This document shows positions 3,409 to 28,505 of a DNA stretch of 28,524 bases, one piece after another; position 1 is the stretch's first letter, and each line of letters begins with the position of its first letter. A model generated the notes under the pieces. It was not told where the DNA came from. It saw only the letters and a program-made list of their open reading frames with translations, and did no database searches. The stretch lies in IMG/VR virus record IMGVR_UViG_3300013004_000147, positions 1 through 28,524 of that record, one strand, 5' to 3'. The position numbers and the translations under genes were made by a program. The stretch comes from a virus.

Positions 3409-3441
3409 AAACAATAATGTTTTTTAATATAATAATGTAAA

Positions 3442-3461: not shown

Positions 3462-5939
3462 TTAGAAATCTAACTTAACGACGTACTGTTGAATGCCTTG
3501 TCTTAATACCGGTGATTGTAGTTTAGACATAACCAATATGTCTTGATTCTCATCCAATAAAGCGATTTCGGTAACATATGACTGTGTTCCAGGTGTCCAA
3601 GTTGGGTTCTGTGAAACCAAGAACTCGTTGAAACTTAAGTTGATTTTATATTTCATCTCATATATTGTTGCTTGAATATCTGTCTCTAAACTACCGTAAA
3701 AGTAATACTCGTCACCAAAGTTAAGTTGTTGTCCTGTTGCGCCGTTTTGAACCAATTCAACGTAATTATTCAAATTGTAGTAAGGCGCTGAACTGTAATT
3801 TTCTGCAGTAACGATAAACGTAGTTGCCGTTAAGGATTGTTGCGTTACATACCCATTTAAAAACAAATCACTTATCTGAGAGGTAAAATCAATCAATCTC
3901 CATTGTGTTGGGTCAGGTCTTTGACCTACTTCCGTTTTTTGAGCCAACACTTGGAACTCGGTTGCGTAGAATCCTGCTGGAACAGTACAAGTAGGACAAG
4001 ATGTTGTTGTTGTCGTAACATAAGGTTCTTGAGATGTTGTAGTTGTCGTTGTTGTTGGGGTAAACCCAGGTTGTACAAGACAATTAAACTCACCACCAAA
4101 TCTAACAGCCACATTCTGTGGTGTGTCAGGTGTACAAACATTTGCGGTTCCTACAACACTTGTATAGTAATTACTGTGTAGTGAGTTTGTAAATGTATTG
4201 GTGTTTGATAATCTATAAGTAACCCAAAGAGTTTCGTTACCACCAGTTAATACCCCTGTAGAGTTAGAAACTCCACCTGTATTTGGTGTAATTAATGAAA
4301 CTTGTGGTGCCGGTAAAGTCCAGTTTCTATTTGATTTATATGATAATGCCGCAACAATTTCTTCGTCATCAATAATAATCAATTTAGAATCAGGGAATAC
4401 TTTACCAATTCTACTTGGTAATCCATTTGGTTGAGCAAATGTGTCCCAAAGGTTATAGTATCTTAAACCAGGTTGGTTCATATTGTCAGATACACTTGAT
4501 TTAATATATTGTACTTGGAATAAGTTTTTACCATCAAACCCCGGAGGATCAACCCAAAAAGTTTGACCGTAACAACATTCAGGGTTTTTGTGCCACATCA
4601 AAGTTGGTATATGTAATTTAAAGTTCCTTGCCTGTCCTTGAGTGTTATCAGGATTTTGAGTATCGTAAGGTTCTAAAGCAAATTTTTCTCCATAGAAAAA
4701 ATCTATTGTTTGATTCGTATAGTGAATGATCGCAATTGCTTTTTGTTCTTCAGGTGTTACAACTTTCTTTTCACCAAAAGAGTTATAATAGTAAACAGAA
4801 TCTGTTGATGTCTGAGCACTTGATGTGGTATAACCAAAATATTCTTTTTGACCAATATAATTAATTGATCCGAATTTAGTATAATCTTGATATGTACTTG
4901 AGTTTAGTCCGGCAGGACTTTCTGTCCACGGAATGTTCATATTCCAAATTTTAACATCAAATTGATCGGTATCACAAACCGATTCAAAATCAATAACACT
5001 TTGACTCCAATGTGGTTCAGGTGTAAAACTATCGTACAATGGAACCATTTGTGGTGGGTAGATTAAAGTTCTTGCCCAACAATCAATAGAAAGATCTGTA
5101 AAATCAGGTGTTGATCTATCTAAAGTTAAAACATTGCCACAAACCGCAACAATTCTATATGTAAGGATTGAAAAGCAACTAATTACATCTTTATTACAAT
5201 CAGGTACCGGTGGTAACGGACACTGTGGTGTATTTGAAGGTGTTAAGCACGGTGTATGTGTTGGGGTTGGTGTTGGTGTTGCCGAAGCGCAAGGTATTGA
5301 CGCAGTTGTTGACGGTGTTGGTGTTGGTGTAGGCGTTTGACCCACAGATGCGGTTGGTGTTGGTGTTGGTAAATTACTACAAGAACAATCAGTTTCTGCT
5401 CTACCATCATAATAAATGGTGATGAAGTCTCCAACGCTAGGAGTGTTATCATTTTGAGTATTACAATCCATTCTCTGAACCGTAATTTCATTTGTGCCGT
5501 TCAATGAAGACATATTAACCACATAGTTAGGTGTAATAACATAACTATTGTTTACAAGTGCTTTCCAATTTACGGTTGATGCGGTTGTATTTCCTGTGAA
5601 GAAACCTCTCATAGCAGCTCTGTTATAAACAGATTCAATACCAGAATCCATAAATGGAATTCCATATATATTTGTCTGACCTTCGTCAACTAAATAAGGG
5701 TATTTAATGTATTGTCTATTTGATTCTGGAACACCAGAACTATTTTGTGAATTAAACTCCGGTTCTAAAACAACCGTGTTAGTTTGATTATAAGTATCGG
5801 GAAGTTTGTTGTATGAAACTTCACTATCACCCAAAGCAAAATATGTTATTCTGAAGTTACCCTCAGATAACCTTTGTCTACCTGTGTCCGTAACACGAGT
5901 ATTGACTAAACCTGATGTATTTTTTATGATGTATGCCAT
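3462..5939 (-). CDS. Large virion protein with Thr-Pro and Thr-run inserts, probable tail fibre/adhesin
   Basis: An 825-residue protein. Residues 1-45 contain 'T-x-x-GR-x-x-L-x-x-GNF ... GDSEV', resembling N-terminal attachment domains of phage tail-fibre-like proteins. A beta-rich region follows. A Thr-Pro tract at about 191-240, flanked by Cys-x-Cys on the left and several Cys on the right, seems inserted between 'DFITIYYDG' and 'LTYRIVAVCGN'. A second insert near residues 630-652 has two Thr runs and a Cys pair. The last 170 residues look like a separate beta domain ending in 'QQYVVKLDF'. No enzyme motif is visible. It has its own TATTTAT box, so it is probably a single-gene late unit. Function as a fibre or surface protein is inferred from composition and neighbours. 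Confidence 0.65.
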   Translation of the reverse strand: MAYIIKNTSGLVNTRVTDTGRQRLSEGNFRITYFALGDSEVSYNKLPDTYNQTNTVVLEPEFNSQNSSGVPESNRQYIKYPYLVDEGQTNIYGIPFMDSGIESVYNRAAMRGFFTGNTTASTVNWKALVNNSYVITPNYVVNMSSLNGTNEITVQRMDCNTQNDNTPSVGDFITIYYDGRAETDCSCSNLPTPTPTASVGQTPTPTPTPSTTASIPCASATPTPTPTHTPCLTPSNTPQCPLPPVPDCNKDVISCFSILTYRIVAVCGNVLTLDRSTPDFTDLSIDCWARTLIYPPQMVPLYDSFTPEPHWSQSVIDFESVCDTDQFDVKIWNMNIPWTESPAGLNSSTYQDYTKFGSINYIGQKEYFGYTTSSAQTSTDSVYYYNSFGEKKVVTPEEQKAIAIIHYTNQTIDFFYGEKFALEPYDTQNPDNTQGQARNFKLHIPTLMWHKNPECCYGQTFWVDPPGFDGKNLFQVQYIKSSVSDNMNQPGLRYYNLWDTFAQPNGLPSRIGKVFPDSKLIIIDDEEIVAALSYKSNRNWTLPAPQVSLITPNTGGVSNSTGVLTGGNETLWVTYRLSNTNTFTNSLHSNYYTSVVGTANVCTPDTPQNVAVRFGGEFNCLVQPGFTPTTTTTTTSQEPYVTTTTTSCPTCTVPAGFYATEFQVLAQKTEVGQRPDPTQWRLIDFTSQISDLFLNGYVTQQSLTATTFIVTAENYSSAPYYNLNNYVELVQNGATGQQLNFGDEYYFYGSLETDIQATIYEMKYKINLSFNEFLVSQNPTWTPGTQSYVTEIALLDENQDILVMSKLQSPVLRQGIQQYVVKLDF
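3985..4062 (-). repeat. Thr-run insert (ACA repeats)
   Basis: Two ACA-type microsatellite runs encode Thr stretches around 'SQEPYV' in the 825-residue protein. Similar residues, 'CLVQPGF' and 'CTVPAGF', stand on the two sides, as if the boundary had been duplicated when the insert arose. Confidence 0.5.
5220..5369 (-). repeat. Thr-Pro linker in the 825-residue protein
   Basis: Alternating Thr-Pro codons, seen on the plus strand as GGTGTT/GTTGGT runs, cover about 50 residues with interspersed Cys. The tract is opposite in orientation to those at 2028-2180 and 2502-2555, so the window carries imperfect inverted copies of this low-complexity DNA. Confidence 0.75.
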
Positions 5940-10660: not shown

Positions 10661-12853
10661 TTATGAACAACTTACACAAGATATATTGTAGTCAATCATT
10701 AGATTAACTTTTATCTCCGTATCTTGTAATGGATTTATTTGTTGGGTAACACAGTTTTTAGTAATATCATCACAAGATGTTGTTATTGTTATTCTATTTG
10801 AGGTTATGTCAACTGTAACACTTGATATCCCTGAAAAACTTTCTAAAATGTCTGTAATTGCATTTGCCCAAACTAAGTCACTTGGATAATCTGTCGCTCC
10901 TGTTGAAGTATAGAACTGTGTTTGAGCTGATTGTCCGCTAACCTCAGCATATACAGTAAATTCAGCAGAATTAATTACACAATTTGTATCACCACTAGTT
11001 AGATCATTAAATCCTTCCAAATACATTGATCTCATAGTTTTTCTCTGTACAAGACCACTATCAAAAAACTGTTCCTCACAAACTGTGTAATATCGGTAAT
11101 CAACATATTTTTTAGTTCCAGTAAGTGTTACGGATTTCGTAAATGAACAACCACTAACATCGGTACAAGTCAAACTGTATGTACCTGCCGTTAATCCTGT
11201 GACTGTATCTCCAGTGAAACCATTAATACTACCACCACTCCATATTAAATTAAATGGGGGTTCTCCTGAATATATAAATGTTGTGATTGAACCGTCATTT
11301 CCATTTAATGGTTGCGTTGGGAACAAATCAAAATATACAGACTGACTGTAATCAACATATACCTCAAAACTTTGTATACAAGTTGGTGATCCTGAATCTT
11401 GGACTGTAAGGGTATAATTACCCCACTTTAAGTTATTAAATATTCCAACAGGACTTGTAGTTGTTGTTGGATCATATATTGGGCCGGTTAATGTGAAAAG
11501 GTACGGGAATGTTCCGCCTGTAGATACAGTAACTTCAACTCTACCATTACTACTACCACAAGTTGTCCCCGTAACCAAAGTTGTTGCACTATATAAGTTA
11601 ACCGAACTTATCGTTGTTGTTGCACTATAAGTACACCCCGCAGACGTTACAGTAACTAAATAATTACCATTTGGTAATCCGTTAAATGTTTGATTTGGGT
11701 TCCCTAATGTTCCTATTTCTTGTATTCCTGTTGATCCTGATACCGAAATCAATAAATTGGCAACGCTACTTATTCCATTATCAACCAATACTTGTATTGA
11801 TCCGTCATTTGTTGAGCAGAATGAGTTTGTTGTATTAACCGCAACAGTACTGAATGAATTAGGTGTTTGTAATGAAACCGTATCATATATCGTACAAAGT
11901 CCCGCATCAGTCACTAAAAATGAATAACCACCTGACGATAATCCCGTGAAAGTTACTGACGTATCAAAAGTTATCTCAACTTGACCTGAAGATCCGCTGA
12001 AGAAATATGGTGCTGTTCCACCCACAACAATAAACTCAACCTCACCGTCATTAGCAAAACAACTTGGTTGTTGTAATACCATAAACCCACCAGATGCCAA
12101 TGGAGGAACTTCACCAACAACGAATGATTTTGTTGTTGTACAATTCTCCGTATTAGTTATTGTCGCCAAATATGTTCCCGCAGTTAATCCTGTGATTGTT
12201 GTTCCTGTCTGACCGTTGGCGTTTGGACTCCAACTTACCGTATAAGCACTTAATGGTGGTGTTAAACCTGTGATGAATATTTTACCACTACCTCCTTCAA
12301 CACAACTCGCGTTATTTACAACATAACCACTAAAGTTAAGTTCGGTTGATGGTGTTACAATAACAGACGCTGTTATACCTGTACAACCACCCCCATCATT
12401 TGCAACAATATAATAAGTACCCGCGGATAAACTAGTGAATGCGTAATAAGGTGTTGGTGTTGTTGCCGAAGTAATATAATTATCAGATCCATCATATAAA
12501 ACGAATGATGCGTTTCCATAAAGACCTGATGTAAATCCTGTGACAACCCCATTGTTTAATCCACAAGTGGTTGGTGTTGAATCTATACTTGTTGTTGTCC
12601 CTGTGGAGATGTATATTGGTTGTAATACTTTTGTTGATGACGCATCATAAATTTCAGCCCAATAAGTTCCGCCCGTTAAATTTTTAACATAATAAGTTGT
12701 TGTATTTGCCGATACCGGTAGTAACCCTAATCCGGTACCATCTACAACCCCAAAGTTAGGAGTATCTCCGGTTATTCTAAAATAAACCGCCCCTGATCCT
12801 GTATTACTACAATCACCAGTGACACTATAATTATATATCTGAATGTATCCCAT
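10661..12853 (-). CDS. SprB-repeat adhesin-like virion protein
   Basis: A 730-residue protein made mainly of seven SprB-like units (about residues 12-85, 94-168, 177-248, 257-330, 338-415, 425-500, 508-578). Each tends to show 'C-x(3-5)-(N/D)G', then 'G-L-x-x-G-x-Y-x-x-x-x-x-(D/N)' and a late Cys. The unit length is about 75-80 residues. SprB is known as a gliding and surface adhesin of flavobacteria; in a phage it suggests a fibre or a mimic of host surface proteins. Residues 632-730 form a separate domain homologous to the C-terminus of the 995-residue protein encoded just upstream, including 'YPSDLVWANAITD'. Its start overlaps the upstream stop (TAATG). No signal peptide is seen, as expected for a virion part. 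Confidence 0.7.
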   Translation of the reverse strand: MGYIQIYNYSVTGDCSNTGSGAVYFRITGDTPNFGVVDGTGLGLLPVSANTTTYYVKNLTGGTYWAEIYDASSTKVLQPIYISTGTTTSIDSTPTTCGLNNGVVTGFTSGLYGNASFVLYDGSDNYITSATTPTPYYAFTSLSAGTYYIVANDGGGCTGITASVIVTPSTELNFSGYVVNNASCVEGGSGKIFITGLTPPLSAYTVSWSPNANGQTGTTITGLTAGTYLATITNTENCTTTKSFVVGEVPPLASGGFMVLQQPSCFANDGEVEFIVVGGTAPYFFSGSSGQVEITFDTSVTFTGLSSGGYSFLVTDAGLCTIYDTVSLQTPNSFSTVAVNTTNSFCSTNDGSIQVLVDNGISSVANLLISVSGSTGIQEIGTLGNPNQTFNGLPNGNYLVTVTSAGCTYSATTTISSVNLYSATTLVTGTTCGSSNGRVEVTVSTGGTFPYLFTLTGPIYDPTTTTSPVGIFNNLKWGNYTLTVQDSGSPTCIQSFEVYVDYSQSVYFDLFPTQPLNGNDGSITTFIYSGEPPFNLIWSGGSINGFTGDTVTGLTAGTYSLTCTDVSGCSFTKSVTLTGTKKYVDYRYYTVCEEQFFDSGLVQRKTMRSMYLEGFNDLTSGDTNCVINSAEFTVYAEVSGQSAQTQFYTSTGATDYPSDLVWANAITDILESFSGISSVTVDITSNRITITTSCDDITKNCVTQQINPLQDTEIKVNLMIDYNISCVSCS
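11120..12820 (-). repeat. Seven-unit SprB-like repeat array
   Basis: Protein-level tandem repeats of about 75-80 residues with strongly diverged DNA. They are recognised by the recurring 'G-L-(T/S)-x-G-x-Y' turn and paired Cys. The first unit lacks the Cys pair and is the most diverged. Confidence 0.7.
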
Positions 12854-15840
12854 TATTCGTTACAAAATATTTCAAATTCAATTCCTACGTTTATTTGGAA
12901 ATCGTCAAAATTAGGAACACAGTTATTATTAAACACGACCACATTTTCATTATCCACATCAATATTATAACTATATCCTGATGTTAGTAAATTATCCAAC
13001 GCATCACCCAAAGCATTAGTCCATTGAGTATCGGTTGGGTATTGACTTGGCCCAATTCCGTTGAAGAACTCATATTGTTGTATTAAAACCCCATTTTGTC
13101 GTATATCAACATACCAACTTGATGAAACAGTATTTAATGAACATACTGTTGAATTTAACCCATTTGATGTGAAAAAGGCTTGTAATGTTTGAGTTAACAC
13201 AATACCAAAAGAAGTCACCAATGGGTCGTTATTCCAAGGATATAAACCACAAATAACCTCTTGAACCGGACAATCCAACACATAAAGTTGTGTTGATAAA
13301 GTACAAGGTTTACAAGGTACCGGAACAAACTTACAACCTTCTTGTCTTCTCCATACATATTTTTGTCGGTGAAAAATAGAGTTTTCCAATCTCACACCTG
13401 TATTCCAAATCGTTGTTGCTGGAACCATTTGTTCCACCATTCTGATCCAATAATTACCCATTCCATTCACATAATCAATCATCGTTTGATATGTGAAGTT
13501 ATCATTTTCAATACCCGCTAATTTTTGTGATTCCAAGTATCTCCAATAAATTGATTGTAACGTAGGGTAACCACCTGTTTTACCATCAGTAATTGTTTGT
13601 CTGTTTCTGGTGTTAACCATATTTCTCCAAAACGTTTGAGCAAACTCAAAGAATGTTTTTTGTTTTGGTTTAGGTACAATTGTTGTCCAATCAATACCAC
13701 CTAATTTAGGATATGGGTTTGGTATGTCACAAGGTGTTGGTGGTGTGTAAAATAACCCTTGTTCTGGAATTGGGAAGTTGTATTGACGAGACATTGTCCA
13801 TACATCATAAACCAAACCTTGAGCCGGGTTCATCATAATGTCAACATTCTTTACATTCAATGTTAGACATTCTTCTCCCACCTCATAGTAAGAATTAAAT
13901 CCTCCCTCAAAACTTGTTCTTAAAGTTGGGTCTGAATCAGTCCAACTCTTTTTATTATCCGCAACTCTTCTTAACTTAAACCCTAAGTTCAAATAAGGGA
14001 ATTGTCTATATCGTTGTAAATATTCTTCACCGTAATTAAATGGTAATAATTGAGTTTGATAATTTGGGTTATTACCTGTAAATAATAAATTTGTTGGTAC
14101 CGCAAACTCAGGCATTCTGTGTTGTGGTGTGGACTCAAACCATCCCCCACCAATTTGGAAGTAATATGTTTCAGATGCGGTTGGCATTTGAGGACAACCG
14201 AACGCGTCAACAGGATAATCACCTCTATCCGTTAAAACATTAGAATTAACCGAAAATGTTGTGAATCCCGTATATTGAACCCCTTGAATGTAGAATATAT
14301 TATCACCTTGTAATACCGGTAATTGTAAACTTATCGTACCACCTGTAATTTGGAAGTATTGTTTATTAAACTCACTCATATTAATACGTTGGTCGGCAAC
14401 ATAAATATATTCATTAAAGTCAATTAGAGCTTCAGGTGCTCCAACCATTCTTAATAAACACTCTATTGACTTTCTTGTTCCTTTTGATTTAAATAGGTAT
14501 GCTGAATTTAATATTAAGTTTCTATAGAACTGATAATTAATTTCTTCTGGTGTCGGCCCAATTTGTAATCCAGGAAAAGTGTTTGGTTGTGTTGAAAATA
14601 CCGACTGTAACAACTCCTCGTTTGATATTGGTGAGAAGTTTGTTGCCCAACCCAAAGTTTGAGCCAAGTTCTTCAATAATTGTGAAGGTATATCATTTTG
14701 TACAGTATAATGAACACTGTTGATATTACCTAATGCGGATATGAAAGATTTTGTTTCATCAAAACTTCTTCCGTAAATCTGTAATAACTTTTCAAATTTT
14801 TGATCGGGTGTGTCAAATTCTTTTAACGCCCCTGTGGTAAAGAATCTTGAAATTAAGTTAGTATTGTATTGGTCTAAATTAATTGCAAAATCATTAATTT
14901 GTGTTAGGTAATTATCAAAACTTGATGTAACAATATCCAAGTTCCAAATACCGGCTTTAGGGAATGTTGCATACTCATTTGATATAGCAAATGAACCATC
15001 TTCTAATTCTCTTGGAACAACGAACTTTGCGGTATATGCCGGTGTTATTTGTCTATTGAGTAAGAAGTTCTCAACCGCATCAAAATTTAAATTAAATACT
15101 TTATTAACCTCAAAATCATTTGGTCTGACCACCAAGTAGTCATAAGATATTTGATTACCACTAAATGGATTTCCATCAACAATAATCTTTAAACTAGTTG
15201 AGTTACTGTCTGTAGGATATAAGTAGTTCAGAGGATATTGTTGACCATTAACAAATAGAATATATTTCTTATACTCTAATTTCATATTTCTCAATGGTGA
15301 AACTTTGTTTTCATTAAACATCATATTTGTTTCGGCATTTTGCGAAAAATCAATGTCAAATGGGTTTCTTATTGAGGATAATAGTATCTCTAATGTTGTA
15401 TCGTTTTCAATGGAATCGTAACTTATATTAAATGCCGTTTCTTGATTTAAGAAAGTTTCCGTTTGTGGAGCTACCTCTAAACCAGCGGGAAAGTAGTTAA
15501 TTATCTTAGTAATTGAAACTGAAAATCTTTTAACTAATGAACCATATTGGGTAAAGTTTGTAACCTGACTTAAATCATAGTTAGGGTAAACTCGGTAGTT
15601 TGCCGCTAATATTTCAGCCGATTCTACATTATTATCAATGTTGATAGATTCTAAATTGATAGGGTCAGAAAATGTTCCTATCGTAAAAGTTCTATTCTGT
15701 TTTTCAGTAATGTTTGTTGTGAAATTAAAATTCGCCTGTGTTAAACCACCACCCGCAACAAGCTGAACCCCAACTAAATTGTTAGAGAATTGGTTTGCTG
15801 CACTACTTTGAGGTGGACAAGTAAATTTCTGTGTTGCCAT
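12853..15840 (-). CDS. Large baseplate/tail protein (tail protein I-like segment)
   Basis: A 995-residue virion protein. The middle, around residues 340-465, contains 'LLQIYGRSFDE' followed by 'YLFKSKGTRKSIECLLRMVGAP'-type sequence, a pattern seen in phage tail protein I-like and related baseplate-periphery proteins. The N-terminal third is beta-rich. The C-terminus changes character: a Cys-rich linker near 850-875 leads into a domain at about 909-995 ('QYPTDTQWTNALGDALDNL') that also ends the adjacent 730-residue protein. Start and stop both sit in TAATG overlaps, so it is tightly coupled to the 301- and 730-residue genes. Probable role: connects the baseplate to fibres (inference). Confidence 0.6.
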   Translation of the reverse strand: MATQKFTCPPQSSAANQFSNNLVGVQLVAGGGLTQANFNFTTNITEKQNRTFTIGTFSDPINLESINIDNNVESAEILAANYRVYPNYDLSQVTNFTQYGSLVKRFSVSITKIINYFPAGLEVAPQTETFLNQETAFNISYDSIENDTTLEILLSSIRNPFDIDFSQNAETNMMFNENKVSPLRNMKLEYKKYILFVNGQQYPLNYLYPTDSNSTSLKIIVDGNPFSGNQISYDYLVVRPNDFEVNKVFNLNFDAVENFLLNRQITPAYTAKFVVPRELEDGSFAISNEYATFPKAGIWNLDIVTSSFDNYLTQINDFAINLDQYNTNLISRFFTTGALKEFDTPDQKFEKLLQIYGRSFDETKSFISALGNINSVHYTVQNDIPSQLLKNLAQTLGWATNFSPISNEELLQSVFSTQPNTFPGLQIGPTPEEINYQFYRNLILNSAYLFKSKGTRKSIECLLRMVGAPEALIDFNEYIYVADQRINMSEFNKQYFQITGGTISLQLPVLQGDNIFYIQGVQYTGFTTFSVNSNVLTDRGDYPVDAFGCPQMPTASETYYFQIGGGWFESTPQHRMPEFAVPTNLLFTGNNPNYQTQLLPFNYGEEYLQRYRQFPYLNLGFKLRRVADNKKSWTDSDPTLRTSFEGGFNSYYEVGEECLTLNVKNVDIMMNPAQGLVYDVWTMSRQYNFPIPEQGLFYTPPTPCDIPNPYPKLGGIDWTTIVPKPKQKTFFEFAQTFWRNMVNTRNRQTITDGKTGGYPTLQSIYWRYLESQKLAGIENDNFTYQTMIDYVNGMGNYWIRMVEQMVPATTIWNTGVRLENSIFHRQKYVWRRQEGCKFVPVPCKPCTLSTQLYVLDCPVQEVICGLYPWNNDPLVTSFGIVLTQTLQAFFTSNGLNSTVCSLNTVSSSWYVDIRQNGVLIQQYEFFNGIGPSQYPTDTQWTNALGDALDNLLTSGYSYNIDVDNENVVVFNNNCVPNFDDFQINVGIEFEIFCNE

Positions 15841-17951: not shown

Positions 17952-18754
17952 TATGGGTTAACATATTCATACCATTTTATCGGTGTTACGGAATCACCAA
18001 CTCGTAAATTGGTTGATGTTGAGAACACTTCGTAAGTTTTGTTGTTATAATTCAAATCCACTCTATAATAGAAATATGTTGAGTTATCAAAAGTAAATTT
18101 GTTTGGGATGATTAAATTTTGTCGGGTATTAGTCATTCTCTTGAATACCCCAGTTCTAGCATCAAAGAAACTTGCGGTCATAAAAAATGTATCAATATTA
18201 ATTACATCACGACTTCTTAACCAATAAATAAAGAATCCTTCCTTGTCACCAATATAATCTAAAACCATTTTTGGTTTTTTAATTTCCACTGAAGGGACTA
18301 ATGGTGACAGAACAACTGTATCAGTTCTACCTTGTTGTACCGGTAAAATAATTGATAAATAAAGTTGTTGGGTCTTTTCATTATCACTATCAAAAAGGTC
18401 TAATTTGAAGAATGACTTTGTGAATGGTTTACTGTAATAATAAATTTGTTCTGTAGTAAACCCAAGATTTAAATATGATAAATTCCAAGACCCTACTGTT
18501 GTTGCGGTTATCGGTTGTGAGTTATCATAAAAATAAAACTCATAATCAATTGAGGTATCAAAATTAGAAAATACATTGTGACTAAATCTTGAAATCTCAA
18601 AATCGGTCGCAGTCCCAATTACTTGTTTTAATATGGATGTTTCGTATTCACTGATTGCTTCGTCCCTTCCAGTGAAATCCCATTGCATATTAATTGGAAT
18701 ATTAATAGATTGGTCTAAATCTGTTTTTAGTATTTTTACTTTATTCGCATTCAT
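17951..18754 (-). CDS. Virion structural protein, unknown family
   Basis: A 267-residue protein of mixed composition with many aromatic residues and no Cys-rich or linker features. The start lies inside the end of the upstream 597-residue gene with a 14-base overlap, and the stop overlaps the next start as TAATG, so its expression is coupled on both sides. The segment 'GRDEAISEYETSILKQVIG' looks helical; the rest appears beta-rich. No recognised domain. Baseplate role inferred from the gene block. Confidence 0.5.
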   Translation of the reverse strand: MNANKVKILKTDLDQSINIPINMQWDFTGRDEAISEYETSILKQVIGTATDFEISRFSHNVFSNFDTSIDYEFYFYDNSQPITATTVGSWNLSYLNLGFTTEQIYYYSKPFTKSFFKLDLFDSDNEKTQQLYLSIILPVQQGRTDTVVLSPLVPSVEIKKPKMVLDYIGDKEGFFIYWLRSRDVINIDTFFMTASFFDARTGVFKRMTNTRQNLIIPNKFTFDNSTYFYYRVDLNYNNKTYEVFSTSTNLRVGDSVTPIKWYEYVNP

Positions 18755-20534
18755 CTACTAATGGGTCTTCAATTGTGATTATGTTCTGAGGAACTTTACC
18801 TATTTGTGCGTAATCACTTGGTATGTTATAATTTTCAGGTGTAATTCTAAATATGGTGTTCACATATGGGTAGTGAGCCCCATTCATAAATGGGAAATCA
18901 ACACCAACACCTTCGTTGTCTATAAAACCATATGGATATAAATCTCTCCATCTAAACAAAGCATTGGTTGTGGAATAATACGCATAAGGTGGTATTCCCA
19001 CAACTTTACTTGAACTGCCTTCTTCAATATAATCAGAGAACGCACCTATCTGTATTGCGTTATGTGGTTGATAAAAATACCCAACCTGATTTGTACTATT
19101 CAACCCGTTATCAACGATGGTAAACCAATTTTGATTAAACTTTATTTTATGTTGATAGGTAGAAATTACTCTCTCTAATTGTTCAAAGTTATTCCATTCA
19201 CAAAAATCCCCATCAATAGTATCTCCCGATTGTAATAATTTATTAAAGAAGAATGGACCAGATCCAACTAAAGATGTGTATTGTGTTTGGGGTATATTTG
19301 TATTTGAATTGGGGTTACTTTGATCCCACCAAGTTTGTGGTTTTTTGTTTTGTAAAAATGTGTTGAACTCCCAACCTTGTTTCATATTTCTTGTCCAACC
19401 AAAATACCCTCTCCAAATTGTGGTAAAAAATAATTCAGTTAGTGGTCTATTTTGATTATCAATCAAACCGTTGATGTTTATATCACAATTAAACGATAAA
19501 TTATAAGATCTACTACCTTCTTTAATTGAAGTTCTCTGTTTTTCATTTGGTGTTAGAACTTTAATCTCACATTTCTTTTTATCACCATATATGTTTCTCT
19601 CAAAACCAGCGTTAACTAAAACCGCACAATCAGGGTTAGTAATGATTTTGTGTTTACGAATATAATATTGACTAATAGTGTCCGCAGAATTAGCGGCATT
19701 AATGACTCTTCTAAAAGTTCCTTGAGTGTTCGTTTGGAATGTGGTACCAGTATATCCAACGTTTCTAATATTAAAAATATATTCATTTGATCCTGATGCT
19801 CCATCACCCAAACTAGTTACTTGGAACATATTATTTCCATTATAATTAATAGACAAATAAACATACTCACCAACAGACAGTCCGTGTTTCATTGGTGATT
19901 TGAATACTATGTTATTACCCAATAAATTAGATCCTACAACAACATAAAATGGTATTCCGTTTGATGCGACCCAAGACCAATTTAGATTAGTATCTGGTTC
20001 AACCGTAAATAAAGTTTTAGTAAAGTCATTGGCGAAGGCATAACTCATATAATGAGACCAATTATAAGTTGTTGCACTTACACTTTTAAAGTCAATGTGG
20101 TTATTTGGTGGTTGAGTGTAACCCACAACACCGTTATCCGTTCTGATAAAATCAAATTCAGGATATTGTGGTAAACCTTCCCACGGCACGCTTTGGTCTG
20201 TTGCAAATGGGGGTTGGTTACCTTGATAGTAATAGTTTTGAGCATTACCCACCGCATTGGTATAATATAAATTATCTCTAAATGGAACGTAAGTGGTTTC
20301 ACCCGAAATAGCATTTTCAAATAATATTGTGAATTTTGTTACGGGTCTAAAAATAGTTGATGTTTGTCTTTCTTCTTCAAACACATTTACCAAATTTAAA
20401 TCAACACTTCTGTCGTATTCAACTAAATCTTTACTTGTTTGACTGAACGGTATGTTAATAAACTGATCTGTTCTTGGTGCGGATTTATACCTCTGCGTTG
20501 ATAATATTATTCTTTCTGTTGGATCTACGGTCAT
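18741..20534 (-). CDS. Baseplate structural protein, in the gp8 position
   Basis: A 597-residue protein coupled to the 1862-residue gene by TAATG. It is rich in Asn, Tyr and Phe with no catalytic motif. In T4-like phages gp8 follows gp7 in the wedge cluster, and this gene holds the matching place, but it is much longer than T4 gp8 and I see no diagnostic residues. Homology is therefore not claimed. Structural role is inferred from the operon. Confidence 0.5.
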   Translation of the reverse strand: MTVDPTERIILSTQRYKSAPRTDQFINIPFSQTSKDLVEYDRSVDLNLVNVFEEERQTSTIFRPVTKFTILFENAISGETTYVPFRDNLYYTNAVGNAQNYYYQGNQPPFATDQSVPWEGLPQYPEFDFIRTDNGVVGYTQPPNNHIDFKSVSATTYNWSHYMSYAFANDFTKTLFTVEPDTNLNWSWVASNGIPFYVVVGSNLLGNNIVFKSPMKHGLSVGEYVYLSINYNGNNMFQVTSLGDGASGSNEYIFNIRNVGYTGTTFQTNTQGTFRRVINAANSADTISQYYIRKHKIITNPDCAVLVNAGFERNIYGDKKKCEIKVLTPNEKQRTSIKEGSRSYNLSFNCDININGLIDNQNRPLTELFFTTIWRGYFGWTRNMKQGWEFNTFLQNKKPQTWWDQSNPNSNTNIPQTQYTSLVGSGPFFFNKLLQSGDTIDGDFCEWNNFEQLERVISTYQHKIKFNQNWFTIVDNGLNSTNQVGYFYQPHNAIQIGAFSDYIEEGSSSKVVGIPPYAYYSTTNALFRWRDLYPYGFIDNEGVGVDFPFMNGAHYPYVNTIFRITPENYNIPSDYAQIGKVPQNIITIEDPLVDECE

Positions 20535-23500
20535 TATTCTTCAGTTGTTGCTACGTAAAGTTTATAGAACCTGTCTACCGCTGTTTTACCATTATTCAAA
20601 CCAAAATAGAAGTGGTAAGGTGCTCCAACCACAACCGCTTGTGAATTAGATCCGGTAGGTTGTCCTTGTATAATGGTACTAATTGGTGGTTGTGGTGCCG
20701 GACCATTTGTTGATCCTGTGTAATTAGCAATGTAACCTAATTTAGTTGTTTGAGTTATGTATTTTTCCTGAAGAGTATCAAAGTCAAGATCTTGGTATTT
20801 TTTACTAAAGAATCCACCACCATAAACTGTATCAGTAACCCAGTTGTTATCTTCAGTTCCAAAGATATTCATAGTAGGGTCACTTTTCTTTAAAGACCAT
20901 TTGTAATGTGGAACAACTTGTGATTTAGAATAACCGAATTTTTGTTGAATTAGTGGTGAAGTACTATAGGTTTCAATTCCCGGTGATTCTATTTTTCTAT
21001 AGTTTAAGTTTTGTTCTGGTGTTTGGAAAAACACACCAAACACAGGTTTAATGTCCGCACCTGATGGGTAAGAAGCGGGATAATAGTTATCACCAAAGAA
21101 AATATAATCATTACTTGGTACGTTCTCAGTAATGAAAGGTAATACTTTCCACTCTGAATTAATTGATAACATTTGAGCCCAATCACCATCAATTCTATAA
21201 CCACCTCTTGTACTGTTAAAGAACTGAATAATACCTTTACCCTCACTTGAGTCCCCACCAGTACTAACAGGTATCATTCTTTGTCTAACACCCTCATTTA
21301 ATACTCTTGATAAGAACCCTAATTGGATGAGGTCAGAATTATCTTGGTATGATGTCGCTTTTAATTGGTCAGCATAATAAGATCCGAACCCATCAATACC
21401 ATTACAACAAATCTCATTAATGAAACTGTCTCTTGGGCCTAAATCAACAACCGTTATTGGGAATTGGATTTGTTTTTTATTATATCCAAAACCAGGGAAT
21501 GATGATAATGATCCGATTGCGTTTTCCGTTGGTGAATTTTTACCAATAAAATCCGAACCATTCCACGGCGAAGATCTATAATAGAAACTATTTGATAGGT
21601 CGTTGAATACAATAACGTTATCACAATAAGTGTAGTTAGGTTCAAGGTTCGCACCAAATGTGGTTCTCTTGTTAAAGGAGAACATATATAATGAACCGTT
21701 TAACCAATTGTTTTGGAACACTTGAGAGAATATTCCTCTACAAGCAGCAAAGTTCATAGTAAATCTAACTTTCCACTCCAAGAATAATCTTGCATCATCG
21801 GGGTATTGTACTAAATATGTTTTATTCAACAAACAATAACAACCATTAACCATTCTGTTTGCCGGTATAGAACATTGATCAGGTGGGATAACCCCAACAT
21901 TACTTCCTGAACCACTGTAACACTCTAAAGGTACCATACCTTCACAACTCAATGTACTGGTTAGTCCTGAAATAAATGGATCTTCATCTTGTTGGTCTCC
22001 TGTTGGTAAATCTAAACCAGCACTTATTGTTGGTTCAGTGGCAACACCAGTTGCATTATAAGCGGTAAAATTATTATTTTGGTGTAACGCATAACCCGTA
22101 TTATTCTGAACTCCGTTCTCAACTTTGGTTGATGTTGGTAGTCTATCACTCCTCATAACAATGTTTGTACTTTGGAATGTGACGGGGGTAAGTCCGAATC
22201 GGTAATAAGCCGGTGAATATAATACTGAAATATTACCGCCAACATTAGTGTTGTTAAACCAACCATCTTGGGTGTTATAATATTGTTTCTTCTGACAATC
22301 TTGATCACATCCTTGTGTTGAAGAATTAGTATCTATTGTTTTTGTGAAATTTATATTGGAGTTCCAAGCCAAGAATGATCCACCACCAACGTATTGTGTA
22401 GGTGCAGTTTGGGCTCTTGGTATTGTATAGTTAGAGTTTGATAAAACTTCATATAAATTACTACCTACGGTTAATTGTGATGTGTTTTGCCAAGTAGGGA
22501 AAACAGGTGTGTAAGAACCGATACCAGCAACATTAGTATCATCAGTACATAAATAAAAATATGGTAAGTTAGACGTAAATGCTGTGAATTTTGTTGTGTC
22601 GGGCGTAAACGCAAATGAGGGGAAATACAAATTAGATACGTTATTAGTTGTACTGACGTGACTAACCGGTTTATTACCTGAGGTAAATGAGTTATAACCT
22701 TGTATTGGTATGTTCAAGTAATATGAACCTTCAACCTCAACAGATCCAAAAGATGTAAAACCAAATATTTTAGATAAATCATATTTAATCGTCTGTTTTG
22801 GTGTAAATGGATCAACACCTCTAACAAAGATACAAACCTCATATCCTTGCCATCCTTCCATTAATGTTACAACATTATTAATTGTCCAAGAACTAAATGT
22901 AGGTTGAGGCGGAAGATATACCGGACAATCTGGTGTTTGGATTTCTATATCGTGTCTCAAATAATTGTTAGGATAATAACCGGTAGTTAACTGATCAATA
23001 TCAATAAATTGATTAATGGTAAGCCCTGTAACTAATTGAAAATACTCAATATCAGTTGCAAACTGTAAGTAAGATGCTTCAACATTTGTATTACCAACAA
23101 CTGGTTGTTGACTAACTTGTGGTAAATTAAGAACTATGTTTGCCGGTAAATTAACTTGTTGGTTAGTAGGGTCAGCGTACTGTATTAAAGTAGGTATTGA
23201 GTTACCTGTTAATGTTGTACCTGTAATTGAATTAGTTCCAAATTGGTTAAGTGTTGCCCCCGTTAAGTTAACTAATCTGTTTGATGATTGGGTATCCGTA
23301 AAATTAGGGTCTTGGAATGAACAAACATTACCAATACCGATTTGGTCTATTGCTCCAGGACTCATTAATACAACAACAACTTGGTCTGTAAATGATTGTG
23401 ACCCCAAACTTGGGTTAACTGTTGTTTTTACTTGATTGACACCACTAAAGTACTTGTCTCTTGTGTTGAAGTCATTTAATTGTTGTGGGAATGTTTTTGA

Positions 23501-26122
23501 TTTGGGATAAGCGAAGAATCGTCTGTCAGGTGGCCCTAACGGTTGTTTATCTGTTGCCCATAAAAATGGTTGTGGTGCGTGTAACAAATATTTTTCATTA
23601 TCATATAATCTATTTGGGTTATTTGAGGATTCAACATCATATCCTGAAATTACTCTCGCTAAATCTAAAGAAGCCTGAACAGCCAAATCTTGATTAATAT
23701 CATCATCACCAATATTAGCGGCTAATGTTTTAAATGGCCCAGTATTACCACATTGATATGGATAGAAATTAGGATCATCAGCCGGACCCGATAAATTTGG
23801 GTGATCTATTACATAAGACCCCGCAGAGTTAACAGGTGCAATTATACTTAACGATGGTATTAGAGTATAATCATAAAAACTACTTGACCCCCCTTGAGCA
23901 GCGGCATCTATCTGATCATTAACACTATTAATGTCAAAATTATCGTCTTGTTCCGCATTTCCACAATCACAATCACAACTTGTACAATCAGGGTACGCAA
24001 TCATAGGTAATGAAATTCTTGGGAAACCTTTCACCTTTATCGCCGCGGCAACGGCAAATACACCAAACGCAATTGCCAAAGCCAATTTAAATGCTGCGGC
24101 CGCAATTAAGAAAATTCCCGCAAAAATTAATCGTATACCCTCAAGTATAAATCCAACATTCACAGTTACCCCAACACCTAATTGAATAACTCCAGCTGCG
24201 GAATTAAATAATTGTATACCATTTTGTATCGTATTAAACAACGCAACTGCTGCATCGTAAGTTAGGTAAATACTCAAGGCTATTAACACATATTTGAGTA
24301 CTGGCCATATGAATGAGATGAAGTGAGCAACAAATAATAAAACTAAAATTGGGAATGTTAGTATATTAATTAGTATGTTGAATACAAAAAATATTGGATC
24401 AAAGTTTCTAATTATATCATTTACCGGAAAAGTATTAACTGTTGATTTACAAGATCTATTATCAATCTCTTTAATACCTAAATGCCTTGCTCTACCGATC
24501 CCATTCTTATATCTATCCAAGAACATTGCTGTGGTATATACCTTGTTGTAGTTAAACTCATAGAATGTGTCCTCACAATCAATTGCCTCTTGTGGGTTAA
24601 CGTAGTCGTCCCAATCTAAACTAAAAGCATATGATTTCAATAGTTCAAATAATGTTTCAGGATATACCGTAAATGAAAAATCCTGACTTACGTTAGGGTT
24701 GATTGGTGTTCCTATTATTTGAATTGTATCACCAAGATTAAACGGTATTGAATTTTGTGATCCAATATATAAAACTCCGTTTATGTATATGTTATATGAT
24801 GAACTGTTAGGTGCATCATCAAATGAAATACCGGCATCAAATCCAAATGATTGTATTTCCGTCACTCCCGATGTGGAACCTGCTTGGATTTGATATGTGT
24901 ATGATTGTGTTGACTGATCAAATGGGTCATTAGCGGAATTAGACCACCCGTACTCTTTAACGTTTGGAACTAAAAAGTTTGCTCTTTGGAAACTGTTCTG
25001 TAACCCTTCTTGGTTTTGCCATTTTATTTTGAATCGGTATTTACCTTTTGTTGGTATTCCTTTACTTGGGTCGTCAGATAATACTTGTTCCCCAAATTCG
25101 TTAGTATAAACATAATCCAAGTTCATTGGTACATTAAGAACATATGCTCCGTCAGGATCAATCACTTTACCTTCTTGTTCAACTTGATAGACCTCTAAAA
25201 TTGGTAATCCTTGATCGTCAGAATTAATTGTTTGTCTTATTGCTTGTATCTCACCAGGGCCAGCAACTAATTCACATAAATTACCCGTATTGTTTTTTGG
25301 TTTACAATTGGTTTTTAATGCGTCATCATCAGTTGTCGATATAATTGACCCCATAAAGATGGAGGTTGGTTGGATGTTAATATTCGCTTGTTTGGTTAAA
25401 TCAAAATCTACTCGTGTAATACCAACTTGACATAAGTCTTGGTCACCCCAAAATGGTGCAACATCCACGTCAAATACCAAATTTTTAATCTGTGGTAGTT
25501 CTCTTAAGTTTGTTGAGGTTCTAAATGTTGATCCATTAACTTGTGTTTCCGTTGCCAACCCTTGTTGTATCAAATCTTGTGGTGATAAAGAGAAACAACC
25601 AATGTCAGATAAATCAACGTCCATTACAATTGTTTGAGTTCCAGTGGGAACACCGAATATCATAAAGTCACCACTATCATTAGTTGTTACGGTGAATCTG
25701 TAATACTTGTCGTAAACCTCAATATATGATTCGTCCATCAAAACATCACCAACATTTGGGAATGTCCCTGTTGATTTATGCCCTTTATAAGATGGTAATT
25801 TTGGTAATAAATTATATCTATAACCTTCCTCATTGGTATCAGTTATGGTTTTGAAGGGGTATAGCTCAGAGATCACTGGGTCAAACTCATCCGCATCATC
25901 CAATGGGATAAAAACGGAAACCTTTGCGTTTGGCAAACCAAACCCATTATTAACAAAAACACGACCAACTACAACACCGTAATCGGCACACATTCTTGTA
26001 TATAAATCGTTTGCGAGAATCTTTAAAGATAGTACTTCCAAAGATTCCCAATCTTGTTCTAAATTGACGTTAATATATTTGTCAACACCGACTTCGGTTC
26101 TTATTCTATATGATTTGGGCAT
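20534..26122 (-). CDS. Giant baseplate/tail protein with hydrophobic core segment
   Basis: An 1862-residue protein, the largest here, following gp25 and gp6 where T4-like phages encode the wedge protein gp7. Residues about 50-175 look like a beta-sandwich of the carboxypeptidase-regulatory type ('GRVFVNNGFGLPNAKVSVFIPL', then 'TNDSGDFMIFGVPTG'). A long beta-rich region follows. Residues about 577-695 are strongly hydrophobic, with four or five segments that could span a membrane. Directly after them is a Cys cluster (Cys713, 716, 718, 720). The C-terminal 1100 residues are Asn/Tyr/Gln-rich and beta-like. The hydrophobic block is unusual for a baseplate protein and may be buried or act in membrane contact. 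It has its own TATTTAT box and starts a four-gene coupled unit. Confidence 0.65.
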   Translation of the reverse strand: MPKSYRIRTEVGVDKYINVNLEQDWESLEVLSLKILANDLYTRMCADYGVVVGRVFVNNGFGLPNAKVSVFIPLDDADEFDPVISELYPFKTITDTNEEGYRYNLLPKLPSYKGHKSTGTFPNVGDVLMDESYIEVYDKYYRFTVTTNDSGDFMIFGVPTGTQTIVMDVDLSDIGCFSLSPQDLIQQGLATETQVNGSTFRTSTNLRELPQIKNLVFDVDVAPFWGDQDLCQVGITRVDFDLTKQANINIQPTSIFMGSIISTTDDDALKTNCKPKNNTGNLCELVAGPGEIQAIRQTINSDDQGLPILEVYQVEQEGKVIDPDGAYVLNVPMNLDYVYTNEFGEQVLSDDPSKGIPTKGKYRFKIKWQNQEGLQNSFQRANFLVPNVKEYGWSNSANDPFDQSTQSYTYQIQAGSTSGVTEIQSFGFDAGISFDDAPNSSSYNIYINGVLYIGSQNSIPFNLGDTIQIIGTPINPNVSQDFSFTVYPETLFELLKSYAFSLDWDDYVNPQEAIDCEDTFYEFNYNKVYTTAMFLDRYKNGIGRARHLGIKEIDNRSCKSTVNTFPVNDIIRNFDPIFFVFNILINILTFPILVLLFVAHFISFIWPVLKYVLIALSIYLTYDAAVALFNTIQNGIQLFNSAAGVIQLGVGVTVNVGFILEGIRLIFAGIFLIAAAAFKLALAIAFGVFAVAAAIKVKGFPRISLPMIAYPDCTSCDCDCGNAEQDDNFDINSVNDQIDAAAQGGSSSFYDYTLIPSLSIIAPVNSAGSYVIDHPNLSGPADDPNFYPYQCGNTGPFKTLAANIGDDDINQDLAVQASLDLARVISGYDVESSNNPNRLYDNEKYLLHAPQPFLWATDKQPLGPPDRRFFAYPKSKTFPQQLNDFNTRDKYFSGVNQVKTTVNPSLGSQSFTDQVVVVLMSPGAIDQIGIGNVCSFQDPNFTDTQSSNRLVNLTGATLNQFGTNSITGTTLTGNSIPTLIQYADPTNQQVNLPANIVLNLPQVSQQPVVGNTNVEASYLQFATDIEYFQLVTGLTINQFIDIDQLTTGYYPNNYLRHDIEIQTPDCPVYLPPQPTFSSWTINNVVTLMEGWQGYEVCIFVRGVDPFTPKQTIKYDLSKIFGFTSFGSVEVEGSYYLNIPIQGYNSFTSGNKPVSHVSTTNNVSNLYFPSFAFTPDTTKFTAFTSNLPYFYLCTDDTNVAGIGSYTPVFPTWQNTSQLTVGSNLYEVLSNSNYTIPRAQTAPTQYVGGGSFLAWNSNINFTKTIDTNSSTQGCDQDCQKKQYYNTQDGWFNNTNVGGNISVLYSPAYYRFGLTPVTFQSTNIVMRSDRLPTSTKVENGVQNNTGYALHQNNNFTAYNATGVATEPTISAGLDLPTGDQQDEDPFISGLTSTLSCEGMVPLECYSGSGSNVGVIPPDQCSIPANRMVNGCYCLLNKTYLVQYPDDARLFLEWKVRFTMNFAACRGIFSQVFQNNWLNGSLYMFSFNKRTTFGANLEPNYTYCDNVIVFNDLSNSFYYRSSPWNGSDFIGKNSPTENAIGSLSSFPGFGYNKKQIQFPITVVDLGPRDSFINEICCNGIDGFGSYYADQLKATSYQDNSDLIQLGFLSRVLNEGVRQRMIPVSTGGDSSEGKGIIQFFNSTRGGYRIDGDWAQMLSINSEWKVLPFITENVPSNDYIFFGDNYYPASYPSGADIKPVFGVFFQTPEQNLNYRKIESPGIETYSTSPLIQQKFGYSKSQVVPHYKWSLKKSDPTMNIFGTEDNNWVTDTVYGGGFFSKKYQDLDFDTLQEKYITQTTKLGYIANYTGSTNGPAPQPPISTIIQGQPTGSNSQAVVVGAPYHFYFGLNNGKTAVDRFYKLYVATTEE
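24038..24394 (-). other. Hydrophobic multi-segment region inside the 1862-residue protein
   Basis: About 119 residues (577-695) with very few charges: 'FFVFNILINILTFPILVLLF', 'PVLKYVLIALSIYL', then a glycine/valine stretch and two Ala/Ile/Leu/Phe helices. Several stretches of 18-20 residues are long enough to span a bilayer. The flanking parts are polar and soluble-looking. Confidence 0.75.
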
Positions 26123-26140
26123 TAAAGATTTCGTTTTTTC

Positions 26141-26147
26141 ATAAATA
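26141..26147 (-). promoter_or_regulatory. TATTTAT box before the 1862-residue gene
   Basis: The box is 18 bases before the ATG at 26122, in the context AACTATTTATGAAAAA shared with the 301-residue gene. It sits in the larger 76-base gap after gp6, downstream of a tandem AT-rich repeat. Confidence 0.55.
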
Positions 26148-26157
26148 GTTTATTTCC

Positions 26158-26198
26158 TATTTTAGAAAAAATAATCTTATTTTGAGAAAAATAAATCT
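26158..26198 (-). repeat. Imperfect tandem repeat between gp6 and the giant gene
   Basis: Two adjoining copies of 20 and 21 bases (plus strand TATTTTAGAAAAAATAATCT and TATTTTGAGAAAAATAAATC plus T) fill most of the gap right after the gp6 stop. They lie just upstream of the TATTTAT box at 26141 and could be a binding site or an upstream AT-rich promoter element. Confidence 0.5.
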
Positions 26199-28040
26199 CT
26201 ATGAGAAGTTTACTGATTTTAAGTTCAATACCCTCACATTAATGTCCTTATTTGGGTATCTAATTTGGTAAGTTTGTGTTGGTGTTGCGAAGATTGTATC
26301 TGCTGTTGGTTGTATTCGTCTTGTCAATGGATCCGAATATGGCATTGATGTTTGAGCTGAAGAATATTGTCCTCCAACTTGGTTGAAGAATGCGATGTCA
26401 GAGACACTTACAATACCGTTTTTAGACTGAATTATTCGTCTTAATTCAGAGATATTAACATTTTGACCTAACTCCCTAACTAAAGGGTTAAAGAACTCTG
26501 TAACCAACTGAATTACTTTAGCGATAACCGCACCTTGGTTTTGACTATTATCTAAAACAACATCAACAGTAACTGATAGATCAATTGTTTCCGCCGCTTC
26601 TATTGAGATGTAGTCATTTATCATACGATAATTTGATAGGTAATTAGCTACGTTTTGTTTCAAGGTATTTGAAACGACATTAGTTAAACTACCACTCGTG
26701 TCATAAGACAACATTTTAATTTTGATCTTATTATTCTCTTCGGTAATCGCGACTTTAGCAGGTGCGCCAAATTGAGACGGCATTGTTCGTATGATTGAAT
26801 TGTAGTCATTAACTGTAACCGCTCTATTTTGAGCCGCAAAGTTAAATGCAACCATATTTCTAACATCTTCAGTTGTTGGTAAGTTAGCCCCACCAATAGC
26901 TGCAGTTACGTTGTTACACTGTAAACTGTTAATCACACTTCGGTTAACGGAATCTGACGGCCCATTAACGGCAAATGAGACGGTACCAATTTGATTAATT
27001 GTGTTAATACCTAAATTACTCGCTAATCCACCACCAATCCTATATTGAACGAATAATGTTGTGTTTGGTGTTAAAGCAGCCCCCATAGCAAAGTTATTAG
27101 TATATCTACTTAAATCAAAACCTTTACCATCACGAGCAAATTCTCTTAATTGTTGTTCCGCAGAGATATTACCACCACCAAAAGTCATTTTACAGAAACC
27201 TTCAGGGGTATATTCACTAATGAATTTGTTTGATGTTGTTATATATCTACCTACTTTAATTCCGGGTTGATCCGACACTTTAGTTGGGTCTTCAATGAAA
27301 ACTCTATCTTGTACCAAAGCATCAACTTCAAACCATCTCTCAGGCCCTACCGTGATAAAATCTTGTGGTTGTGGTATTGTTGAGTACTGTGTCCCTGATT
27401 TAAGAAGAACACTTGTAATACCCAAAACATTTTTTTCGGGTAAGAATAATTCTAAATAAGGTCTAGCGTCGTTAGCTGTGATCACTCTCTTATAAACTTT
27501 TGTAATACCATTAACAACAACTTCTCGTTTAACAATCGTATAATTAATAAGTTTACCACTTGAATCAAAGTTTGGTATTTTTACTCTATTTGGTGATCCT
27601 TCAGCATTTATTGGTGAAGCAAAATCAATATCATAAACCGTTTCAAAAGGTTGTCCCGCACCATTAACTTGGGAACCTCTTCTTAAGACACCACAATATC
27701 TTAAATCTTCTCTATCACCAAAAGCAGGAACTGTAATTGAGAAATCAACCAAAGCAACTGATGGTCTTTGACCTGGTACTTTTAAACCATAAGTTCTTGC
27801 GATATTATAAACGGAGTTCTTCTGTTGAGCAAACTGCAATACAGTTTCTTGAATACTTCTATCAATTTGAAAGTTGAGGTTATCTGTTACCGCAGCGTTC
27901 ATATCTAACATAACAGAAAAAATACCCGCATCATTAAAGTTTTGTACTAGTTCAGGATAATATGTTCTAGTGAAGTTAATTAATTCCGTTCTTACTCCTT
28001 GAAAATCTCGGACTGTATAAGATATATTCTTTTCTGCCAT
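26199..28040 (-). CDS. 6: Baseplate wedge protein, gp6/baseplate J-like
   Basis: A 613-residue protein, close to the length of T4 gp6 (660). It begins 'MAEKNISYTVRDFQGVRTEL', typical of gp6-like wedge proteins, and has a central beta-rich region. The 'TTEDVRNMVAFNFAAQNRAVTVNDYNSIIRTMP' region near residue 390-420 is characteristic of baseplate J-like proteins, in which a loop leads into a helix with 'R-A-V-T-x-x-D-Y'. The C-terminal part has the repeating alpha/beta layout ('VTEFFNPLVRELGQNVNISELRRIIQ') expected for the domain that dimerises around the hub. It starts six bases after the gp25 stop. In the virion it would form the iris ring of the baseplate that transmits the contraction signal. 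Confidence 0.85.
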   Translation of the reverse strand: MAEKNISYTVRDFQGVRTELINFTRTYYPELVQNFNDAGIFSVMLDMNAAVTDNLNFQIDRSIQETVLQFAQQKNSVYNIARTYGLKVPGQRPSVALVDFSITVPAFGDREDLRYCGVLRRGSQVNGAGQPFETVYDIDFASPINAEGSPNRVKIPNFDSSGKLINYTIVKREVVVNGITKVYKRVITANDARPYLELFLPEKNVLGITSVLLKSGTQYSTIPQPQDFITVGPERWFEVDALVQDRVFIEDPTKVSDQPGIKVGRYITTSNKFISEYTPEGFCKMTFGGGNISAEQQLREFARDGKGFDLSRYTNNFAMGAALTPNTTLFVQYRIGGGLASNLGINTINQIGTVSFAVNGPSDSVNRSVINSLQCNNVTAAIGGANLPTTEDVRNMVAFNFAAQNRAVTVNDYNSIIRTMPSQFGAPAKVAITEENNKIKIKMLSYDTSGSLTNVVSNTLKQNVANYLSNYRMINDYISIEAAETIDLSVTVDVVLDNSQNQGAVIAKVIQLVTEFFNPLVRELGQNVNISELRRIIQSKNGIVSVSDIAFFNQVGGQYSSAQTSMPYSDPLTRRIQPTADTIFATPTQTYQIRYPNKDINVRVLNLKSVNFS

Positions 28041-28046
28041 ATACTA

Positions 28047-28505
28047 TTAAATATTAATAATGATAAAATCACTAGATTCAAAAGCGGAATCCGTTATTCT
28101 ATAATCTATTTTAATTCTTGCGGTGTGTTCTAATTGAGCAATATTGGTAACCCTAAATTCTCGTTCACCATCTTTATTTACCGTATAACCTTTATCCTCC
28201 AATCCCGCAGACGCAGGTTCAACAGTTATATTAGTCACTTGTAGGTTTGGCATGTAATTACCGATTGTGTCTCTAATTTCTGATTCAATATCTGAGAATG
28301 TTGGCCCATCAAGTGGTTCAAATATATACTCATAAAGACGAGTTCCAAAATCAGGTAAGAAATACCTTGATCCTTTTCTTGTCAATAATAAGTGAACTAA
28401 GTCAGATCTAATCTCACCTTCAGTAGAATTTGTTACATCCAAATATCTACCTGTGAAGGAATCCACAAAAGGAAAAGAAATACCATATGTAATACCATTT
28501 GCCAT
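28047..28505 (-). CDS. 25: Baseplate wedge protein gp25-like (GPW/gp25 family)
   Basis: A 152-residue protein, slightly longer than T4 gp25 (132). Residues 34-64 contain 'RSDLVHLLLTRKGSRYFLPDFGTRL', broken here by position, followed by 'YEYIFEP'. This is the GPW/gp25 signature: an Arg-Lys-Gly-x-R turn, then P-D-F-G-x-x-L and a conserved F-E. The family resembles a lysozyme-like fold and sits at the sheath-baseplate interface, where it starts sheath assembly. It is directly followed by gp6, as in many T4-like phages. The start MANG is set by the TATTTAT box 5 bases upstream. Confidence 0.88.
   Translation of the reverse strand: MANGITYGISFPFVDSFTGRYLDVTNSTEGEIRSDLVHLLLTRKGSRYFLPDFGTRLYEYIFEPLDGPTFSDIESEIRDTIGNYMPNLQVTNITVEPASAGLEDKGYTVNKDGEREFRVTNIAQLEHTARIKIDYRITDSAFESSDFIIINI

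Follow-up and report, generated by a model that had tools for sequence, protein, structure and literature searches.

The window analysed here, the whole 28,524-nucleotide stretch of the IMG/VR virus record IMGVR_UViG_3300013004_000147, encodes a giant protein of 1862 amino acids with a strongly hydrophobic block in its interior. The features of this protein and its nearest neighbours are, with the basis of the assignment where one applies:

20534-26122, minus strand: ORF of the 1862-aa protein (P0001), which bears the block; ORF translation
25373-25990, minus strand: predicted N-terminal Ig/transthyretin-like beta domain, residues about 45-250; VIA-align
24398-24490, minus strand: conserved N-side flank, residues 545-575 (ARHLGIKEIDNRSCKSTVNTFPVNDIIRNFD), including C558
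24038-24394, minus strand: hydrophobic block, residues 577-695; Kyte-Doolittle, GES and AlphaFold
24293-24397, minus strand: constant core segment, residues 576-610, with N582, N586, H600, W606 and K610
24032-24292, minus strand: variable extension, residues 611-697
23960-24028, minus strand: conserved C-side flank, residues 699-721 (GFPRISLPMIAYPDCTSCDCDCG), including C713, C716 and C718
22043-23875, minus strand: confidently predicted domain, residues about 750-1360; AlphaFold
20537-21775, minus strand: C-terminal part, residues about 1450-1862
26199-28040, minus strand: gp6-like baseplate wedge protein (Baseplate_J), the conserved upstream neighbour
28047-28505, minus strand: gp25-like baseplate wedge protein
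18741-20534, minus strand: 597-aa protein, the conserved downstream neighbour

The order gp25, gp6, giant gene and 597-aa gene is near-invariant among the relatives. The gp6 gene lies upstream of the giant gene in all 111 loci with enough flanking sequence, and the 597-aa gene downstream in 91 of 92 loci. This synteny supports the baseplate association implied by the initial annotation, which had described a giant protein in a baseplate position; its gp7 label was left without support, since comparison with T4 gp7 detected no similarity. A gap of about 75-87 bp (26123-26198) that separates the giant gene from gp6 is kept in nearly all relatives and may hold a promoter or other signal, whereas several neighbouring genes of the window touch or overlap. 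Elsewhere in the window, a 299-aa ORF (278-1177) matches the N-terminal domain of DnaG-type primases (E 3.8e-7), and 2800-3414 appears RuvC-like by eye (GLDVSTRTIGWALFD), with no Pfam match at E 0.01. The ORFs at 1476-2744 (plus strand) and 3462-5939 (minus strand) contain long Thr-Pro repeat linkers (TPTPTP...), and these repeats also generate antisense ORFs, for example at 1889-2254.

Relatives on contigs of 272 and 290 kb retain most of the window genes in the same order. The 272 kb contig proved to encode a tail sheath, which shows that phages of this lineage are contractile-tailed. They probably infect Bacteroidota, as judged from gp6 relatives in Flavobacterium phage immuto, from relatives of the N-terminal part of the giant protein in Bacteroidota, Cytophagales and other MAG contigs, and from SprB-repeat matches (E 1.1e-6) in a 730-aa ORF (10661-12853). 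The SprB repeat is known from Flavobacterium gliding adhesins.

Translation of 24038-24394 on the minus strand gives exactly residues 577-695, and the strong hydrophobicity first noticed there was confirmed. Among all 119-residue windows of the protein, precisely this one ranks first, with a mean Kyte-Doolittle (KD) value of 1.77 against 0.10 for the second-best window elsewhere. The number of 19-residue windows above 1.6 was 65, while 300 composition shuffles gave a maximum of 36 and a mean of 7. The 19-residue peaks fall at residues 580-598 (2.56), 602-620 (1.87), 642-660 (1.83) and 666-684 (2.43), and the GES scale also places four segments in the block (587-606, 613-632, 641-660 and 670-689). 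The four hydrophobic segments of transmembrane (TM) length in the window protein would suffice for a multi-pass membrane protein, for which two or more are expected. The 60-residue KD maximum, 1.85, exceeds those of the phi29 holin (1.42), T4 gp11 (0.66), phi29 gp9 (0.64) and T4 gp7 (0.32).

Structure prediction with AlphaFold was run on residues 1-1000 with 64 relatives (mean pLDDT 64.6). The block was predicted as two long helices, residues 576-645 and 656-696, with pLDDT about 71-78 that falls to 53-58 at the turn between them. The conserved linkers bounding the block were modelled with low confidence, pLDDT being 26-47 in the N-side flank, while residues about 750-1360 reached mostly 80-98. 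The predicted model of residues about 45-250 resembles Ig/transthyretin-like domains (VIA-align Z 8-9.6), the better matches having an rmsd of about 3 A over about 90 residues; VIP3 matches in the same search were weak and helical, and were set aside. Fold searches matched the model of residues about 750-1360 to no known fold and gave no significant match for the C-terminal model. The predicted models back the original description of the flanks as soluble and beta-rich.

Relatives of the 1862-aa protein are encoded by more than 560 IMG/VR stretches, and reference collections yielded very little. No match was obtained by tblastn of the protein and six relatives against 50,697 phage records (for three of them also at E 10), nor by Pfam and PDB sequence searches. 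PHROGs gave one weak match to residues 601-642 (E 0.059) and none with eight relatives. In BFVD, a structure match from Myoviridae sp. ctPuP5 (34% identity over 483 columns, E 3e-28) is likely a homologue. The protein thus belongs to a large family new to the reference libraries searched here, and its hydrophobic feature is unusual, not unprecedented.

When long-form relatives were retrieved by sequence patterns lying outside the block, all 130 of those examined, with identity down to about 33%, were found to carry a hydrophobic element at the same place, next to gp6. Three layers can be distinguished in it. The flanks are near-invariant, reading HLGIKEI..R.C....N.FPVNDIIRNFD on the N-side and FPRIGLPMISYPDCxxCxC on the C-side. 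The core segment of about 35 residues is constant, with H600 at 98% and W606 at 92% (weighted column frequencies, 127 relatives), and carries a small/polar stripe at positions 582, 586, 589, 600 and 603 (hydrophobic-moment p 0.008); its conservation moment is not significant, so that lipid-facing and buried faces are not separated. The extension evolves fast and spans 0-90 residues across relatives, about 85 in the window protein. Residues 613-697 show 10-38% identity to distant relatives, compared with 74-91% for residues 500-575, but length and hydrophobicity are kept there. Within the block, 112 relatives had three to four TM-like segments in 93 cases, two in 12 and one in 7, and 105 of the 112 had no such segment outside it. 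The four or five potential membrane-spanning helices initially proposed are thus not a constant of the family, in which the single segment of about 35 residues is what stays the same.

Short forms have lost the extension or carry a substitute for it, often a strongly amphipathic helix that is in most cases cationic. In one short-form clade (L054-L069 and L281) the replacement 18-mers have hydrophobic moments of 0.70-0.82 and net charges from -1 to +4, the 99th percentile of 18-mers in the window protein being 0.43. The extension is almost absent from two minimal forms (L288 and L291), which have no strongly amphipathic replacement (moment 0.35-0.40). Ten pairs of close relatives were compared within the block, nine of which had a dN/dS ratio of 0.02-0.18 and one a ratio of 0.40, which indicates a translated region under purifying selection and not an assembly artefact. 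Also the invariant Cys before the block (24449-24451) and the CxxCxC after it (23963-23986) are kept in relatives at about 33-37% identity; these sites may bind metal or form disulfides.

Two MAG contigs encode compact orthologues without the block (747 aa in L353 and 728 aa in L355), with 35-41% identity to the 1862-aa protein over the N-terminal 400 residues. L353 runs from the pre-block region straight to the NNWxNG motif (window residues 1469-1492), and so lacks both the block and the roughly 900 residues that follow. Downstream, both contigs have relatives of the 597-aa gene and L355 also one of a 267-aa gene; a gp6 relative was not found among their compared ORFs. A third protein (L354, 2220 aa) keeps the hydrophobic segment with little between it and the NNWxNG motif, so that the block and the large insertion are separable. 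From the C-terminal part of the 1862-aa protein, the FQNNWxNG motif is common to L353 and L354, and the FYFGL motif region to L354.

The giant gene sits directly after gp6 in the baseplate cluster, as does the gene of T4 gp7, a wedge protein that is likewise very large and has a TM-like segment. In T4 gp7 there is one such segment (residues 886-904, KD 2.07) near the C-terminus, as against up to four internal ones in the 1862-aa protein, and the T4 record annotates gp7 with a 'predicted integral membrane domain'. The initial statement that baseplate proteins such as gp7 are not known for such features was accordingly too strong, given also the membrane-active loop of phi29 gp9 (PMC6542822). 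Profile similarity was not detected: hhalign of the shallow profiles A1 and A3 against five gp7 sequences gave probabilities of about 0.1%. It is instead a 995-aa ORF (12853-15840) that matched, by BLAST, proteins of 1265-1400 aa whose genes lie a short way downstream of gp6, within a few genes, in Flavobacterium phage immuto, Microcystis phage Mel-JY01 and an uncultured phage of 484 kb. Hhalign of this ORF against T4 gp7 found nothing; with the similarly placed BLAST matches and a KGxxxS motif seen by eye, the true gp7-like wedge protein may be this one.

At some stage of the viral life cycle the block probably contacts a cell membrane or goes into it, as suggested by a membrane-anchor-like stretch being kept at the same place in every long-form relative. 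The reading that we prefer, tentatively and at somewhat less than an even chance, is a membrane-interacting hydrophobic prong or hairpin in a baseplate-associated protein of phages with contractile tails, which form a large and widespread uncultured lineage and probably infect Bacteroidota. In it, the Cys sites (C558 and CxxCxC) would tie the two ends of the block to each other and let it protrude as a helical hairpin, which would stay shielded before the baseplate fires. Rearrangement of the baseplate would expose the hairpin, which could then insert into or anchor to a host membrane; the timing of the exposure and the membrane concerned are what we infer. In the membrane, it might assist docking of the tail tube or passage of the DNA. 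Membrane insertion or anchoring is thus the best explanation, yet unproven.

Membrane contact is favoured by a hydrophobicity above that of a bona fide holin and far above those of T4 baseplate proteins, by the retention of the block in long-form relatives fetched with patterns outside it, and by the amphipathic helices that replace lost segments in several short forms. An extension that diverges in sequence but persists in length and hydrophobicity suggests lipid-facing or self-packing helices rather than a specific interface. The constantly adjoining gp6 and the two long helices predicted by AlphaFold point the same way, as does the tail region of two 270-290 kb relatives, in which no other coding-strand ORF of the baseplate and tail cluster has a TM-like stretch. 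Against a membrane hairpin speak the minimal forms without a strongly amphipathic replacement, the compact orthologues that manage without the block, and the single-segment form, in which the two flanks would end up across the bilayer from each other unless the segment is re-entrant. Also the first predicted helix, 70 residues long and of moderate confidence, differs from several helices of membrane length.

The TM-like segment of T4 gp7 weighs further against the membrane hairpin, as it shows that wedge proteins of a baseplate can contain one; together with the membrane-domain annotation it favours a buried structural core, in which helices of several copies would pack on each other or on helices of the gp6-like wedge and never meet lipid. 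This serious candidate is possible, though we consider it clearly on the less probable side. It is consistent with the long continuous helices of the predicted model, with the helical core bundles that hold XM1 baseplates together (PMC10457771), and with the small/polar stripe and nearly invariant His, which might serve for packing or bind a metal. A specific interface would not be expected to let its distal 85 residues diverge almost freely and shrink to almost nothing, and the 60-residue hydrophobicity is far beyond that of T4 baseplate proteins.

Basic residues on both flanks (K559 and R572; K696, K698 and R702) would fit an even number of passes with both ends inside, as expected of an assembly anchor, by which the protein would sit in the host inner membrane during infection and tether or nucleate baseplate assembly with both soluble parts in the cytoplasm. 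Membrane-anchored contractile systems do exist, such as that with Anabaena Cis13 (PMC8894136). The flank charge is, however, weak or absent in several relatives, the single-segment forms L288 and L291 would alter the topology, and particles released from the cell would need to detach from the membrane or shed the protein; we consider this explanation unlikely. A frameshift or chimeric assembly bringing a membrane-protein fragment into the ORF is practically out of the question, as the same block recurs in 130 relatives from many independent assemblies, is under purifying selection, and no stop codons interrupt the window ORF or those of its six relatives on large contigs; the initial annotation had named absence from homologues together with assembly error as one case against the block, and the relatives refute it.

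For a hydrophobic hairpin that meets the membrane, phi29 gp9 is by analogy the known protein that would work most alike, with no sign of kinship. It too is a tail protein with a long hydrophobic or helical insert, and its hydrophobic loops come out of the tail tube and assemble into a barrel of helices that is hydrophobic on the outside (PMC6542822). It differs in belonging to a short non-contractile tail and in its Gly/Ala-rich L loop, which has a mean KD of 0.16 against 1.77 for the block; no sequence relation to the 1862-aa protein was detected, and gp9 was absent from the PDB sequence-search results and from the fold-search matches listed. A second likeness, by described features alone, is to Cis13 and Cis12 of thylakoid-anchored contractile injection systems, tail-fibre or baseplate components in which a TM or putative amphipathic helix anchors a contractile machine to a membrane; in Anabaena, correct attachment to the thylakoid requires the TM helix of Cis13 (PMC8894136). 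In Cis13 the putative TM helix is C-terminal, in a tail-fibre-like trimer with a role in cellular anchoring, while the block is internal to a giant phage protein.

The way in which contractile phages move their DNA through the inner membrane is still not well understood. A giant baseplate subunit that hides membrane-inserting hairpins and deploys them on contraction, in an abundant uncultured lineage, would be an envelope-crossing device located in the baseplate and not at the tube tip, an idea that we regard as rather doubtful at present. The block would offer a defined segment for testing membrane action: it has a nearly invariant His and Cys sites in its flanks, and long and short versions exist in nature beside orthologues that lack it. 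In this family, a baseplate-linked protein bears a hydrophobic element that is conserved and often has several segments, and the lineage counts hundreds of metagenomic members.
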